Shown here one piece after another: positions 7,180 through 13,222 of a DNA stretch of 40,073 bases. Numbering within the stretch: position 1 is the first letter of the stretch; each line of letters starts with the position of its first letter. The position numbers were made by a program, and so were the translations under genes. The stretch spans positions 1 to 40,073 of the forward strand of contig VBKJ01000199.1 of assembly GCA_005879795.1 (NCBI GenBank). Reading direction: 5' to 3'. Source of the DNA: Deltaproteobacteria bacterium. GTDB taxonomy: Bacteria; Desulfobacterota; Binatia; DP-6. Below the pieces are notes generated by a model. It had not been told where the DNA came from, did no database searches, and worked only from the letters and a program-made list of their open reading frames with translations.

Positions 7180-8469
7180 TCAGAAGGGCGCGGCCAGGCG
7201 GATCGTCTGGTCGCGCTGCGCGCCGACCGAGAGGAGCGCGACCGGCACGCCGACCAGCGCCGCGAGCCGCTCGAGGTACCGCCGCGCGTTGCCCGGCAGG
7301 TCGGCGAGCGCGCGCGCCCCGCCGAGCGGCTCACGCCAACCAGGCAGCTCGTCGTACTGCGGCACGACGCGCTCCCACGCGCCCCCGCTTGCGGGCGGCA
7401 GCGCGAGGCGGCGCCCGCCCAGCTCGTAGGCGGTGCACAGGCGCAGCGGGTCGATACCGGTCAGCACGTCGAGCTTGGTGACCGCGAGGCCGTCGACGCC
7501 GGAGAGCGCGGCCGCCTGGCGGACGACCACCGCGTCGAACCAGCCGCAGCGCCGCGGACGCCCGGTGGTCGCACCGTACTCGTCGCCGTCGGCGCGCAGC
7601 CGCTCGCCGAGCGCGTCGGTCAGCTCGGTCGGGAAGGGCCCGCCCCCGACGCGCGTGGTGTAGGCCTTGGCGATGCCGACGACGCGGTCGATGGCGCGCG
7701 GCGGGAGGCCCGCGCCGGCGGCCGCGGCGCCCGCCACGCAGCTCGACGAGGTGACGAACGGATAGGTGCCGTGGTCGACGTCGAGCATCATGCCCTGCGC
7801 ACCTTCGAGGAGCACGCGCCGCCCGGCGGCGAGCGCCGCGCGCAGCTCGGCCCCCGTGTCGGTGACGAACGGGCGGAGCGGCTCGCGGAAGCCCGCGTAG
7901 CGCTCGAGGATGGCGTCGAAGGCGAGCGGCGGCTCGCCGAGGAGCGCCTGGAGGTAGGTGTTCTTCTCGCGCAGGTTGCGCTCGAGGGCCGCGCGGAAGC
8001 CCGTCTCGTCGAACAGGTCGCCGACGCGGATGCCGCTGCGCGCCATCTTGTCCTCGTAGGCGGGACCGATGCCGCGCCCGGTGGTGCCGATGCTTCCCGC
8101 CCCGCGCAGCCGCTCGCGCGCCCGGTCGATGGCGCGATGGTAGGGCATGATGAGGTGCGCCTGCTCGCTGACGCGCAGCCAGCGGTCCTCGGCCAGGTAG
8201 CCCCGCCTGCGCAGCGCTTCGATCTCGCCCACCAGCACCTCGGGGTCGATCACCACCCCCGGCCCGAGCATGCAGATGCGGCCCGGGTGGAGCACGCCGG
8301 CGGGAACGAGGTTCAGGACGGTCTTCTCGCCGTTCACCACCAGCGTGTGCCCGGCGTTGTTGCCGCCGTGGAAGCGGACCACGACGTCGGCGTCGGCAGC
8401 GAGGAGGTCGACGACCTTCCCCTTCCCCTCGTCGCCCCACTGCGTGCCGATGATGACGGTGGCGGGCAT
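7180..8469 (-). CDS. purA: Adenylosuccinate synthase
   Basis: A 429-residue enzyme, full family length. It joins IMP and aspartate using GTP to give adenylosuccinate, the first step from IMP to AMP. The N-terminal GTQWGDEGKGK (residues 8-18) is the GTP loop, 'NNAGHT' the IMP-binding turn, 'GSIGTTGRGIGPAYEDK' and 'EGAQGMMLDVDHGTYPFVTSS' the other signatures. The ATG lies 12 bases after the serA stop, so it is the last gene of the riboswitch-led aminotransferase-serA-purA operon. Control by the ZTP riboswitch would reach it unless an internal promoter exists. Confidence 0.97.
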   Translation of the reverse strand: MPATVIIGTQWGDEGKGKVVDLLAADADVVVRFHGGNNAGHTLVVNGEKTVLNLVPAGVLHPGRICMLGPGVVIDPEVLVGEIEALRRRGYLAEDRWLRVSEQAHLIMPYHRAIDRARERLRGAGSIGTTGRGIGPAYEDKMARSGIRVGDLFDETGFRAALERNLREKNTYLQALLGEPPLAFDAILERYAGFREPLRPFVTDTGAELRAALAAGRRVLLEGAQGMMLDVDHGTYPFVTSSSCVAGAAAAGAGLPPRAIDRVVGIAKAYTTRVGGGPFPTELTDALGERLRADGDEYGATTGRPRRCGWFDAVVVRQAAALSGVDGLAVTKLDVLTGIDPLRLCTAYELGGRRLALPPASGGAWERVVPQYDELPGWREPLGGARALADLPGNARRYLERLAALVGVPVALLSVGAQRDQTIRLAAPF

Positions 8470-8481
8470 GGGCGGCGCCGG

Positions 8482-10071
8482 CTAGAGGCGGAGCTGCTGC
8501 GCCGAGACGATCTGCGGCAGCGTGCGCAGCGCGGCGAGCACGTCGTCCGGCACCGGCTCGTCGACGTGGATCAGCGAGATCGCCATGCCGCCCACCCGCT
8601 CGCGGCCGAGCTCGAGGCCGGCGATATTGATGCCGCGCTCGCCGAGGAGCGTGCCGACGCGTCCCACCACGCCCGGCACGTCACGGTTGTGGAGCATCAG
8701 GATGTGGCCCTCGGGCACCGCCTCCATGCGGAACCCGTCGATCTTGGTGACGCGCACCGTGTCGGCGCCGAACACCGCGCCCTCGACCGCGATCGTGCGC
8801 GAGGCGGTGCGCGCCTGGACCGAGAGCGCGTTCAGGTAGTCGCTCGTCTGCGGCGCGCGCGCCTCGATCACCCGGATGCCGCGCTCGCGAGCGATCGCCG
8901 GCGCGTTCACGTAGTTGACGCCCGACTCGAGGAGCTGCCCGAGGAGCCCGCGCAGCACGGCCGCCGCCAGCGAGCGGAGCTCGCGCTCGGCCACCTCACC
9001 GCTCGCCTGCACGGTCACCTCGAGCGGCGGTTCCGGCGAAAGCTGGGCCTGCAAGGCGCCCAGCTTCTCGGCCAGCAGCAGATACGGGCGCAGCACCTGC
9101 AGGACCTCGGGGGAGAGCGAGGGAACGTTGACCGCGTTCTGGATGATGCCGCGGCAGAGGAAGTCGGCGACCTGCTGCGCGATGGCGACCGCGACGTTCA
9201 CCTGCGCCTCGCCGGTCGAGGCCCCCAGGTGCGGCGTGCAGATCACCTGCTCGAGCCGGAGGAGCGGATGGCCGGCGGGTGGCGGCTCCTTCTCGAGCAC
9301 GTCGAGGGCCGCGCCGGCCACGTGGCCGGCCTGGATGGCCGCGGCGAGCGCCGCCTCGTCGACGATGCCGCCGCGCGCGCAGTTGACGATGCGTACGCCG
9401 CGCTTCATGCGCGCGATCGTGCTCGGGCCGATGAGCCCGCGCGTCTCGGGCGTGAGCGGGGTGTGGATGGTGATGAAATCGGCGCGGGCGTAGAGCTCGT
9501 CGAGCGAGACCAGCTCGACGCGCAGGCGCGCCGCGACCTCGTGCGTGACGAAGGGGTCGGAGGCGATCACCTTCATGCGCAGCCCGTGGGCCCGCTCGGC
9601 GACGATCGCGCCGATGTTGCCGAGGCCGATGATGCCGAGCACCTTGTTGCAGACCTCGGTGCCGAGCCACTTCTCGCGCTCCCAGCGCCCGGCGCGCACG
9701 CCGGCCGCGGCCTGCGGGACGTTGCGCGCCACGGCGAGGAGCAGCGTGATCGCGTGCTCGGCGGTGGTCACGTTGGAGCCGCCGGGCGTGTTCATGACCA
9801 CGATGCCCTTCTTGGTGGCGGCGGCGACGTCGACGTTGTCGACGCCGATACCCGCCCGGCCGATCACGCGCAGCGCGTCGGCCTGCGCGAGCACGTCGGC
9901 CGTCACCCGGGTGCCGCTCCGGATGATGAGGGCGTGGAAGCCGCGCACGGCGTCCCTCAGCTCCGCCGGCGAGAGGCCGGGGCGCGCCTCGATCGCCAGC
10001 TCGGGCTGCTCGCGGAGCCGCGCCAGCCCCTCGGGGCCGAGCGGGTCGGTCAGGAGGACCCGGTAGGCCAT
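8482..10071 (-). CDS. serA: D-3-phosphoglycerate dehydrogenase, long form with ACT domain
   Basis: A 529-residue enzyme that oxidises 3-phosphoglycerate to phosphohydroxypyruvate, opening the phosphorylated serine route. Domains: substrate-binding halves around a Rossmann domain with 'GIIGLGNIGAIVAERA', Arg in 'NCARGGIVDEAAL' and His in 'CTPHLGAST'. An intervening ASB-type domain (about 320-450) and a C-terminal ACT domain ('HNRDVPGVVGRVGTLLGE') follow. ACT domains in this family usually bind serine for feedback. The start ATG overlaps the aminotransferase stop (TGATG), so the two pathway enzymes are coupled. A longer open frame upstream is only the aminotransferase gene read in another frame. 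Confidence 0.96.
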   Translation of the reverse strand: MAYRVLLTDPLGPEGLARLREQPELAIEARPGLSPAELRDAVRGFHALIIRSGTRVTADVLAQADALRVIGRAGIGVDNVDVAAATKKGIVVMNTPGGSNVTTAEHAITLLLAVARNVPQAAAGVRAGRWEREKWLGTEVCNKVLGIIGLGNIGAIVAERAHGLRMKVIASDPFVTHEVAARLRVELVSLDELYARADFITIHTPLTPETRGLIGPSTIARMKRGVRIVNCARGGIVDEAALAAAIQAGHVAGAALDVLEKEPPPAGHPLLRLEQVICTPHLGASTGEAQVNVAVAIAQQVADFLCRGIIQNAVNVPSLSPEVLQVLRPYLLLAEKLGALQAQLSPEPPLEVTVQASGEVAERELRSLAAAVLRGLLGQLLESGVNYVNAPAIARERGIRVIEARAPQTSDYLNALSVQARTASRTIAVEGAVFGADTVRVTKIDGFRMEAVPEGHILMLHNRDVPGVVGRVGTLLGERGINIAGLELGRERVGGMAISLIHVDEPVPDDVLAALRTLPQIVSAQQLRL

Positions 10072-11225
10072 CAGCCGCGCGCCGGGAGCCCTTCGGCGAG
10101 GATCCGCTCGGCCGCGCCCACGCCGCGGCCGAGCTCGACCCGGGCGCCGAAGTGATGGAGCCCGAGCTCGAGCGCCGCGACCCCCGTCACCACGTCGAAG
10201 GCGCCCGCGTAGCCGAGGTGCGCGAGGCGGATGATCTTGCCCTTCAGCTTGTCCTGGCCGCCGGCGAAGGTGACGCGCAGGCCGTCGCGCAGGTAGCGGA
10301 AGAGCGCCGAGCCGTCGAGGCCCTCGGGCAGCATGACGGCGGTGGCCGCCGGGCTCGGCGACTCGGGCGCGAGCAGGCGGAGGCCGAGCGCCGTCGCGGC
10401 CGCACGGGTGGCGCGCGCCAGGCGATCGTGGCGTGCGTGGACGTTCGCCCAGCCCTCGGCGCGCAGCATCTGGAGCGCGACGCGCAACCCCTGGACGAGC
10501 GAGATGGCCGGCGTCCACGCGGTCGAGCGTTCGGCCACCCCCTTCCGCTCGCGGCGGAAGTCGAAGTAGAAGCGCGGCAGACGCGCCGTCTCGGTCGCCT
10601 TCCAGGCGCGCTCGGAGAGGGCCACGAAGGCGAGCCCGGGCGGCAGCATGAGCGCCTTCTGCGAGCCGGTCACGAGGACGTCGATCCCGAGCCGGTCCAT
10701 GGGGAGCTCGATGACGCCGACCGCGGTGATGCCGTCGACGACGAGGAGCACGTCGCGCCGGCGCGTGATCTCCGCCAGGGCCGGCACTGGATGGAGGGCG
10801 CAGGTCGAGGTCTCGCTCGCCTGCACGAAGACCGCCCGCACCCGCGGATGCTCGTCGAGCGCCGTCCTGACCGCTTCGGGCCGGACCGCACGGCCCCACT
10901 CGACCACCACCTCGCGCACGGTGAGCCCGTAGGCCTGGCAGATCCTCGTCCAGCGCTCGCCGAACTTGCCGCCGTTCACGACCACGACCTCGTCGCCGGG
11001 CGAGAGGAGGTTGGTGACCGAGCCTTCCATCGCCCCGGTGCCGGAGGCGGCGAGCACGAGGACGTCCTGCGCGGTGCCGAAGAGCTCGCGCAGGCCCTCC
11101 TGCACCTCGGCCAGCACGGCGGCGAACTGCGGCGTGCGATGATGGATCACCGGCAGCGCCATCGCCGCCAGGACCTCGGGCGGGACCGGCGTTGGCCCCG
11201 GGGCGAGCAGAAACGACTTGATCAC
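10071..11225 (-). CDS. Class V aminotransferase, probable phosphoserine/serine-pathway transaminase
   Basis: A 384-residue PLP enzyme of the alanine-glyoxylate / serine-pyruvate aminotransferase group. Lys190 in 'TGSQKALMLPPG' is the expected Schiff-base lysine; 'SGTGAMEGSV' and 'VDGITAVG' are cofactor-binding segments. Being first in an operon with serA, and coupled to it, argues that it transaminates phosphohydroxypyruvate in place of SerC. Family membership alone would also allow glyoxylate or pyruvate as amino acceptor. The start is a GTG at 11225 giving the standard 'KSFLLAPGPTPVPPEVL' opening. An in-frame GTG at 11282 would add 19 residues from the riboswitch expression region and is rejected. 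Confidence 0.88.
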   Translation of the reverse strand: MIKSFLLAPGPTPVPPEVLAAMALPVIHHRTPQFAAVLAEVQEGLRELFGTAQDVLVLAASGTGAMEGSVTNLLSPGDEVVVVNGGKFGERWTRICQAYGLTVREVVVEWGRAVRPEAVRTALDEHPRVRAVFVQASETSTCALHPVPALAEITRRRDVLLVVDGITAVGVIELPMDRLGIDVLVTGSQKALMLPPGLAFVALSERAWKATETARLPRFYFDFRRERKGVAERSTAWTPAISLVQGLRVALQMLRAEGWANVHARHDRLARATRAAATALGLRLLAPESPSPAATAVMLPEGLDGSALFRYLRDGLRVTFAGGQDKLKGKIIRLAHLGYAGAFDVVTGVAALELGLHHFGARVELGRGVGAAERILAEGLPARG

Positions 11226-11251
11226 GGCGGTACCTGTACCCCCTGTGTCAC

Positions 11252-11270
11252 GAGCTCGCGGGGCGAGCCC
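11252..11270 (-). promoter_or_regulatory. Hairpin in the ZTP riboswitch expression platform
   Basis: On the minus strand GGGCTCGC pairs with GCGAGCTC across a CCC loop. It lies between the aptamer and the aminotransferase start and has no T tract, so it does not look like an intrinsic terminator. Flanking it, CCCCTG at the aptamer's 3' edge (11290-11285) can pair with CAGGGG (11245-11240) near the ribosome site, which suggests control of translation. Confidence 0.45.
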
Positions 11271-11289
11271 TCCATCCTCCACCGCAGGG

Positions 11290-11362
11290 GCCCAGGCGTT
11301 CGGCCCGCTGGTCGTTCAGCACTCCCCCGTGGTCGATTCCACGTGAACGCCAGTCGTGCGAG
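11290..11362 (-). ncRNA. ZTP (pfl) riboswitch aptamer
   Basis: Read on the minus strand, the conserved blocks of the ZTP class appear in order: CGCACGACUGGCG (11360-11348), a P2 hairpin CGUGG/CCACG with loop AAUCGA, then GGGGAGUGC, a short GCUG/CAGC hairpin in the linker, and CGCCUGGGC (11298-11290). GCAC/GUGC closes P1 and GGCG/CGCC forms the long-range pseudoknot. This class binds ZTP/ZMP, which build up when 10-formyl-tetrahydrofolate is short, and generally turns genes on. It lies 64 bases before the aminotransferase GTG, in the right direction to control the aminotransferase-serA-purA operon. Confidence 0.88.
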
Positions 11363-11367
11363 GGATT

Positions 11368-11397
11368 CGTTTAGCCGCGCGCTCGCACCCTTGTCAA
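11368..11397 (-). promoter_or_regulatory. Promoter of the serine/purA operon
   Basis: On the minus strand a perfect TTGACA (11397-11392) is followed after 18 bases by TAAACG (11373-11368), a weak -10. Transcription would begin near 11361, which is almost exactly the 5' end of the riboswitch; this agreement is the main support. Confidence 0.5.
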
Positions 11398-11446: not shown

Positions 11447-13222
11447 GTGTCCTGGTCGCGTTGGCTGCTCGCGCTCGTGCTGTCGACGATCGTGGCGACC
11501 CGAGCCGCGAGCGAGCCGCCCGCGGCTCCTCCCGAGCCGGCGTGGCGCGGCGCGGTCCTCCCGGAGCAGTGGCGCCCCGGCGTTGCGGAGAGCGCGGCGG
11601 TGCGTGTGCCCACGCCGATCACACGCGACGAGGCGGTCGAGCGCGTGACGCTCAAGGAGGCGATCGGCCTCGCGCTCCAGAACAACCCGGGCATCGCCGC
11701 GCAGCGCCTCGAGCCGACGCGCCAGGCCGAAGGCATCCTCCAGGCGCAGGCGCAGTACGACCCCTCGCTGTCCGGCGAGCTCGACTACAGCCGGGCGGTG
11801 ACGCCGAACGCGAGCGTGCTCGGCGGCACCCTCACCTCGGTCGTCGAGGACCGGTACGCGAACCTGCATCTCTTCAAGCTCCTGCGCAGCGGCACGCAGA
11901 TCATGATCGACAGCCTGAACGACCGCTTCGACAGCAACTCGCGGTTCATCCAGCTCCGCCCCCAGTACAAGCCGCAGCTCAACTTCTCGCTCGTCCAGCC
12001 GCTCCTCCAGAGCTTCGGCTGGGACTTCAGCTACCTCGTGGTCCGGGTGGCCGAGCGCACCGCGGATGCCGCCGTCTACCAGTACGAGGCGAACCTCGCC
12101 AACTTCCTCGAGCAGGTGATCGACGCGTACTGGGCGGTCGTCGGTGCGCGCGAGAACGTCGAGGTGGACCGCGAGGCGAAGCAGCTCGCCGACCGGACGG
12201 TCGACGAGAACCAGGCGCGCGTGCGGGTGGGGCTGCTCCCGCCGGTCTCCGTCCTCGAAGCACAGGCAGACGCAGCGAGCCGGCAGTCGGACCTCATCGC
12301 CGCCGAGAACAGGCTGGCGGTCGCTCGCCAGACGCTGGCGCAGCTCGTCTACTACCGCCCCGCCGACACCTTCGTGCCGCGCACTCTCGAGCCGAGCGAG
12401 ACGGCCGAGCCCGAAGAGGTGAGCGTCGACCTGGACGAGACGCTCGCCGTCGCGCTCGCCGCGCGGCCCGAGATCCAGGCCTCGGCGCGCGGCGTGACCG
12501 TGCAGCAGCTCAACGAGAAGATCGCCGGCAACGCGCTCCTTCCGGTCCTCAACATGGTCGGGTCGTACGGCGTGAACGGCCTCAGCGGCACGAACCGCGC
12601 CGCCGTCTTCGGCAGCACCACGACCTTCTCCCTCACCCCGATCGCCGGGGCGCGCTGCGTCTCGCTCGCGCCGAACCAGGGCTTCCTCTGCACCGTTCCG
12701 GGCTTGACACCGCCGTCGCCGTTCGCCGGCTCGGCATCCGAGGCGTACGACCGGATGGCCAGCAACGACTTCAGCGCCTACTCCTTCGGGCTCCGGTTCC
12801 AGGTCCCGCTCTCGAACGCGCTCGCCCGGAGCCAGTACACGGCGAGCCGCATCGCGCGTTCGGAAGCGGAGCTGAACCATCGCCAGCTGCTGTCCAACGT
12901 GACCCTCGAGGTGCGCCAGGCGGTCGCCGACCTGGTCTCGAGCCGCCAACGGATCGACACGACGCGCGTCGCGCGCGAGCTCGCGGAGGAGAACCTGCGC
13001 AACCAGCAGAAGCGGCACGAGGTCGGCATGGCGACGACCAAGGACCTGCTCGACTTCCAGACCCGGCTCACGACCGCGCGCGGCGCCGAGGTGCAGGCGA
13101 AGATCGACTACGCGATCGCGGTGGCGCGCTGGCGGCGGGCGCGCGGGCAGCTCCTCGCCTATTACCAGGTCGTGGTCGAGCATCCCGGCCGGCACTCGGC
13201 GCCCTGGTTCGCCAGGTTCTGA
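11447..13222 (+). CDS. TolC-family outer membrane efflux protein
   Basis: A 591-residue outer membrane channel protein. The first 21 residues form a signal peptide (WLLALVLSTIVATRAAS). 'VTLKEAIGLALQNNPGIAAQRLE' begins the first of the two repeats of the OEP fold, and 'LDETLAVALAARPEIQASARGV' begins the second, each followed by long coiled-coil helices. An insertion near residues 370-430, with two Cys and many Ser/Pro, is unlike minimal TolC. No periplasmic adaptor or inner-membrane pump gene is adjacent, so its partner must be elsewhere. The start is a GTG. It is divergent from the riboswitch-led operon, and no convincing promoter was seen for it. Confidence 0.9.
   Translation: MSWSRWLLALVLSTIVATRAASEPPAAPPEPAWRGAVLPEQWRPGVAESAAVRVPTPITRDEAVERVTLKEAIGLALQNNPGIAAQRLEPTRQAEGILQAQAQYDPSLSGELDYSRAVTPNASVLGGTLTSVVEDRYANLHLFKLLRSGTQIMIDSLNDRFDSNSRFIQLRPQYKPQLNFSLVQPLLQSFGWDFSYLVVRVAERTADAAVYQYEANLANFLEQVIDAYWAVVGARENVEVDREAKQLADRTVDENQARVRVGLLPPVSVLEAQADAASRQSDLIAAENRLAVARQTLAQLVYYRPADTFVPRTLEPSETAEPEEVSVDLDETLAVALAARPEIQASARGVTVQQLNEKIAGNALLPVLNMVGSYGVNGLSGTNRAAVFGSTTTFSLTPIAGARCVSLAPNQGFLCTVPGLTPPSPFAGSASEAYDRMASNDFSAYSFGLRFQVPLSNALARSQYTASRIARSEAELNHRQLLSNVTLEVRQAVADLVSSRQRIDTTRVARELAEENLRNQQKRHEVGMATTKDLLDFQTRLTTARGAEVQAKIDYAIAVARWRRARGQLLAYYQVVVEHPGRHSAPWFARF

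Follow-up and report, generated by a model that had tools for sequence, protein, structure and literature searches.

ZTP riboswitches (the pfl motif) of the terminator type, as in Clostridium beijerinckii pfl and in Thermosinus carboxydivorans, are ON switches in which one 3' strand is common to the aptamer and the expression platform and doubles as a terminator arm (PMC2864571; PMC13273304). ZTP riboswitches have also been listed on glyA (PMC2864571), and in Bacillus and Oceanobacillus, tandem ZTP/glycine riboswitches precede the gene for the first enzyme of serine synthesis, phosphoglycerate dehydrogenase (PMC9481103). The locus described here has the same aptamer sequence as the two terminator-type switches, with the helices P1, P2 and P3, the pseudoknot and the shared 3' strand, but its family lacks the terminator U-run, and its target is an operon of a class V aminotransferase (AT), serA and purA. 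As in the Bacillus and Oceanobacillus tandems, the first step of serine synthesis would be activated by ZTP; those tandems, however, carry a downstream glycine OFF aptamer, whereas the present locus has a single ZTP aptamer, belongs to a different phylum, and has AT and purA in the operon. The glyA switches, which occur in Binatia too, follow the same one-carbon logic, with the aptamer 3' end pairing to the Shine-Dalgarno region, but they target SHMT rather than serine synthesis or AT-serA-purA.

The window, meaning the whole stretch of 40,073 nucleotides that was analysed, derives from an uncultured soil bacterium of the class Candidatus Binatia. Named matches of the AT protein placed the related genomes in the same class, most of them being metagenome-assembled genomes labelled "Deltaproteobacteria bacterium". 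In a cmscan search of the whole window against Rfam, the only match was RF01750 (ZMP-ZTP), which covered the full model (1-86) at 11367-11283 on the minus strand with 55.1 bits (E = 2e-6), above the curated gathering score of 39 bits, and included P1, P2, P3 and the GGCG/CGCC pseudoknot. This was also the single ZTP site found in a search of the entire 4.1-Mb genome. Covariation was assessed on an alignment of 32 aptamers, drawn from Binatia and from further members of the phylum. Once the pseudoknot had been added to the structure, 96.4% of the cells in the helices and pseudoknot were paired, and 10 of the 21 pairs showed changes on both sides with pairing kept. One of these was a pseudoknot pair (columns 18/82), with G-C in 23 aptamers and A-U in the remaining 9. 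None of 500 shuffled controls reached the observed paired fraction or the count of both-sided changes, and when the partners were shifted by a single base, the pairing fell to about 43%. The ZTP aptamer with matching stems reported in the first-pass annotation was thus confirmed by both the covariance model and the covariation; its range of 11225-11397 runs from the promoter to the start codon, while the aptamer proper occupies only 11283-11367. By its sequence the element is a genuine ZMP/ZTP riboswitch, and it probably responds to these ligands.

Upstream of the aptamer, the -35 box TTGACA lies at 11392-11397 (minus strand), followed after an 18-base spacer by a probable -10 element, TAAACG (11368-11373, minus strand), whose match is weak but whose TAAAC recurs throughout the window's family. 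All AT-operon leaders that extend far enough have a TTGAC box, 41-68 bases ahead of the aptamer core; one leader was cut too short by a contig end to be included. This conservation indicates that the promoter is more than a chance match. The promoter noted earlier therefore stands, and the placing of the transcript start at the first base of the aptamer is approximate. A TolC-like outer membrane efflux protein (11447-13222, plus strand) diverges from this promoter region. Downstream, all on the minus strand, are the genes for AT (10071-11225; 384 aa, PF00266), the long form of D-3-phosphoglycerate dehydrogenase, SerA, with intervening and ACT domains (8482-10071; 529 aa, PF19304, PF01842, and TIGR01327 at 651 bits against a cut-off of 454), and adenylosuccinate synthase, PurA (7180-8469; 429 aa, PF00709, and PRK01117 at 596 bits). 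The GTG start of AT was backed by homologues whose alignments began at that codon. AT and serA overlap in TGATG, and 12 bases separate serA from purA, so the operon is as first described.

A ZTP site was present in 63 of 148 genomes of the class Binatia. The 68 sites left 66 that could be classified after one below the cut-off and one at a contig end were set aside; 59 of these 66, with homologous leaders, directly precede the AT-serA-purA operon with its purine and one-carbon genes, and the remaining 7 precede glyA. A second candidate in one genome (G012, L063, 37.6 bits) was rejected, as it lay under the cut-off and had no matching gene. In another genome (G001, L044 671-818), which is counted among the 59, all that remains of AT in the interval from the riboswitch to serA is a frame of about 48 codons, and the switch now stands directly before serA. 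The AT-serA-purA operon is thus the standard ZTP target within Binatia, and it was found with a ZTP site outside the class as well, for example in GWB2_55_19 (L223). These counts and the published Bacillus/Oceanobacillus case, which had already placed serA under ZTP control, run against the earlier view of the target as uncommon. No paper was found on a ZTP switch with adenylosuccinate or with an AT-serA-purA target, in a search that lay outside the main ZTP validation study (Kim et al. 2015), nor any that combined Binatota with a riboswitch. With these sites, serine synthesis joins the ZTP regulon of the uncultured Binatia as a class-wide target.

The seeming change of expression platform in the window's family is the point of greater interest. 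The first-pass annotation had the class, the promoter and the operon right but left this platform undescribed, though it is here that the family (seven genomes including that of the window) differs from its class. In nearly all AT-operon leaders of Binatia outside the family, an intrinsic terminator was found that uses the CGCCUGGGC strand of the aptamer as its 5' arm and closes with 5-8 U. When transcripts cut just past this hairpin were folded, the core strand mostly preferred the terminator arm, with probabilities of up to about 0.9; most Binatia relatives are thus classic terminator switches, like the C. beijerinckii pfl type. In the window and its family, by contrast, the 3' strand of the aptamer is not part of any intrinsic terminator made up of a hairpin and a U-run, and the U-run was absent from all seven leaders. 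In most of these leaders the strand complementary to the aptamer 3' strand sits 5-15 bases before the start codon. All seven leaders showed more pairing of the core to the ribosome-binding site than the mean of shuffled sequences (p of about 0.003 in two of them), and folding of the whole leader preferred the downstream pairing in five (0.5-0.98 in L043, L045, L049, L057 and L058), but gave it only about 0.16 in L044 and 0.01-0.15 in the window. Three sister leaders of one genus had no obvious Shine-Dalgarno sequence. Two genomes of the family (L056 8550-8411, and L054) carry a second ZTP site, on glyA; in these the aptamer-end GGUGCCUC pairs with GAGGCACC, which overlaps the Shine-Dalgarno sequence just before the ATG. 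The glyA leaders of several other Binatia are similar, with the 3' end of the aptamer pairing to the Shine-Dalgarno region. Loss of the U-run, together with a capturing strand that abuts the start codon in most of the family, suggests with moderate confidence that the window's family is under translational control. We consider the chances about even that in this one family of Binatia the ZTP switch passed from transcription termination to translational control on the same operon, with the 3' arm of the terminator recruited as a blocker of the ribosome-binding site and the U-run lost. If so, some sixty homologous leaders on one operon, among which the platform has seemingly changed in type, would offer a natural series of the same genes before and after the change.

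In the window itself, the platform begins with CGCCTGGGC, the 3' strand of the aptamer, and runs up to the start codon (11226-11298, minus strand), where the leader comparison and the pairing probabilities together gave an ambiguous picture. A sequence near the start codon, CAGGGGGTACAGGT, complements this 3' strand, and between the two lies a strong 8-bp GC hairpin, GGGCTCGC/GCGAGCTC. From the aptamer to the start codon no run of at least five T was present, and an intrinsic terminator was rejected on this ground. The Shine-Dalgarno sequence (AGGU) is weak, and folding of the window's full leader as a single sequence failed to show blocking of the ribosome-binding site, as the local P3 hairpin won; the claim of translational control consequently rests on the sister genomes. 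It is possible, though we think it rather unlikely, that the switch in this family still acts on transcription through a non-canonical or Rho-dependent terminator in the leader. The terminators of nearly all relatives with the same operon would fit such control, as would the GC hairpin and the observation that the start-codon region of the window was paired in both folded states, but the seven leaders without a U-run speak against it, and so do L043, L045, L058 and others, where the complementary strand is found right at the start codon and its pairing prevails when the leader is folded. Translational control is preferred for the family, and it may be the mode in the window. The genes that are controlled allow a second reading as well, in which AT is a serine- or alanine-glyoxylate aminotransferase and the operon yields glycine from glyoxylate rather than phosphoserine. 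The best NCBIfam match of AT was BhcA and the best PDB match was 6pk1, a serine-glyoxylate aminotransferase, in agreement with its nearest characterised or solved relatives, which are serine-glyoxylate and related (glyoxylate/pyruvate) aminotransferases; the SerC model TIGR01364 gave only 19.8 bits against a cut-off of 443.6. However, the BhcA score reached only about half of its cut-off, AT adjoins serA in nearly all relatives, and a search with the SerC model found no canonical SerC elsewhere in the window's genome, AT being the sole match. The other class V matches in the genome appeared, from their translations, to be likely cysteine desulfurases, a GcvP-like frame and other aminotransferase-like proteins, and one further class V aminotransferase (L093) could fill a glyoxylate role. 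The glyoxylate reading is accordingly doubtful. Given the lack of a canonical SerC in the genome and the position beside serA in relatives, AT is most likely a phosphoserine aminotransferase, which would make it a class V enzyme of a non-SerC kind. For the last step of serine synthesis, the match for serB in the same genome scored below its cut-off.

The first-pass annotation had further proposed that the switch evolved to raise serine synthesis and the AMP branch together, pulling IMP toward AMP, which would make purA a purposeful target. Its place 12 bases after serA and its constancy as the third gene of ZTP-controlled operons across Binatia agree with such a purpose, but the gene order does not depend on the switch. 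A set of 28 Binatia genomes that lack a ZTP site yielded serA in 27, and of the 26 serA loci inspected, 24 had both AT and purA alongside and two had purA only. The trio likewise persists with no switch of its own in three genomes (L102, L123 and L124) that carry their ZTP site on glyA. Of 80 named relatives, Nitrospirota and Nitrospinota included, 50 hold all three genes in order, but only 16 of the 80 have a ZTP site. In genomes outside Binatia the order often has a gene between serA and purA, and the gap between the two is at least 900 bases in 17 of the 50. One of these 17 is GWB2_55_19, where a HisZ-like frame (L223 8845-9852) lies in the gap. Since the trio stands without a ZTP switch in Binatia and in other phyla, the position of purA is independent of the switch. 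In addition, ZMP builds up before IMP is formed, so that more PurA would not relieve the block. We therefore hold a purposeful role of purA to be improbable; the gene looks like a passenger carried along as a member of an older operon. This case cautions that not every gene of a riboswitch-controlled operon implies a purpose, since purA holds its position in genomes that lack the switch as well.

Taken as a whole, we are confident in an explanation in which a ZMP/ZTP riboswitch with its own TTGACA promoter serves as an ON switch for AT-serA-purA and raises serine. When 10-formyl-THF is short, ZMP/ZTP would accumulate and bind the aptamer, whose conserved strand would then be held in the pseudoknot and P3, unable to pair with its downstream complement. 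In most Binatia this complement would be the 3' arm of the intrinsic terminator; in the window's family, which has lost the U-run and in most members of which the arm is next to the start codon, the ligand would probably free the ribosome-binding site. The direction is probably ON in either case, and the outcome would be more serine, made with AT most likely acting as the phosphoserine aminotransferase, and its C3 carbon would pass through SHMT to the folate pool. In this respect the serine and one-carbon logic of the first-pass annotation is supported, while purA would be carried along, having already belonged to the operon.

ZTP aptamers were also observed on other genes. In further genomes of the same phylum, GWB2_55_19 among them, they precede monomeric NADP-isocitrate dehydrogenase and rnfC (L190 877-3090, L214 2938-5169, L185 806-2146 and sister loci). 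No paper among those searched links ZTP switches with isocitrate dehydrogenase, and these sites may surprise more than the serine-purA operon. Most aptamers of this set are followed by a U-run, which fits a terminator, and single cases within it precede sucC, a dimeric NADP-isocitrate dehydrogenase and a pntA-like gene. Two more unusual targets were a Kup-like potassium transporter (L180 710-2527) and a BenE-like transporter (L195 4050-5402), each with a ZTP aptamer upstream.
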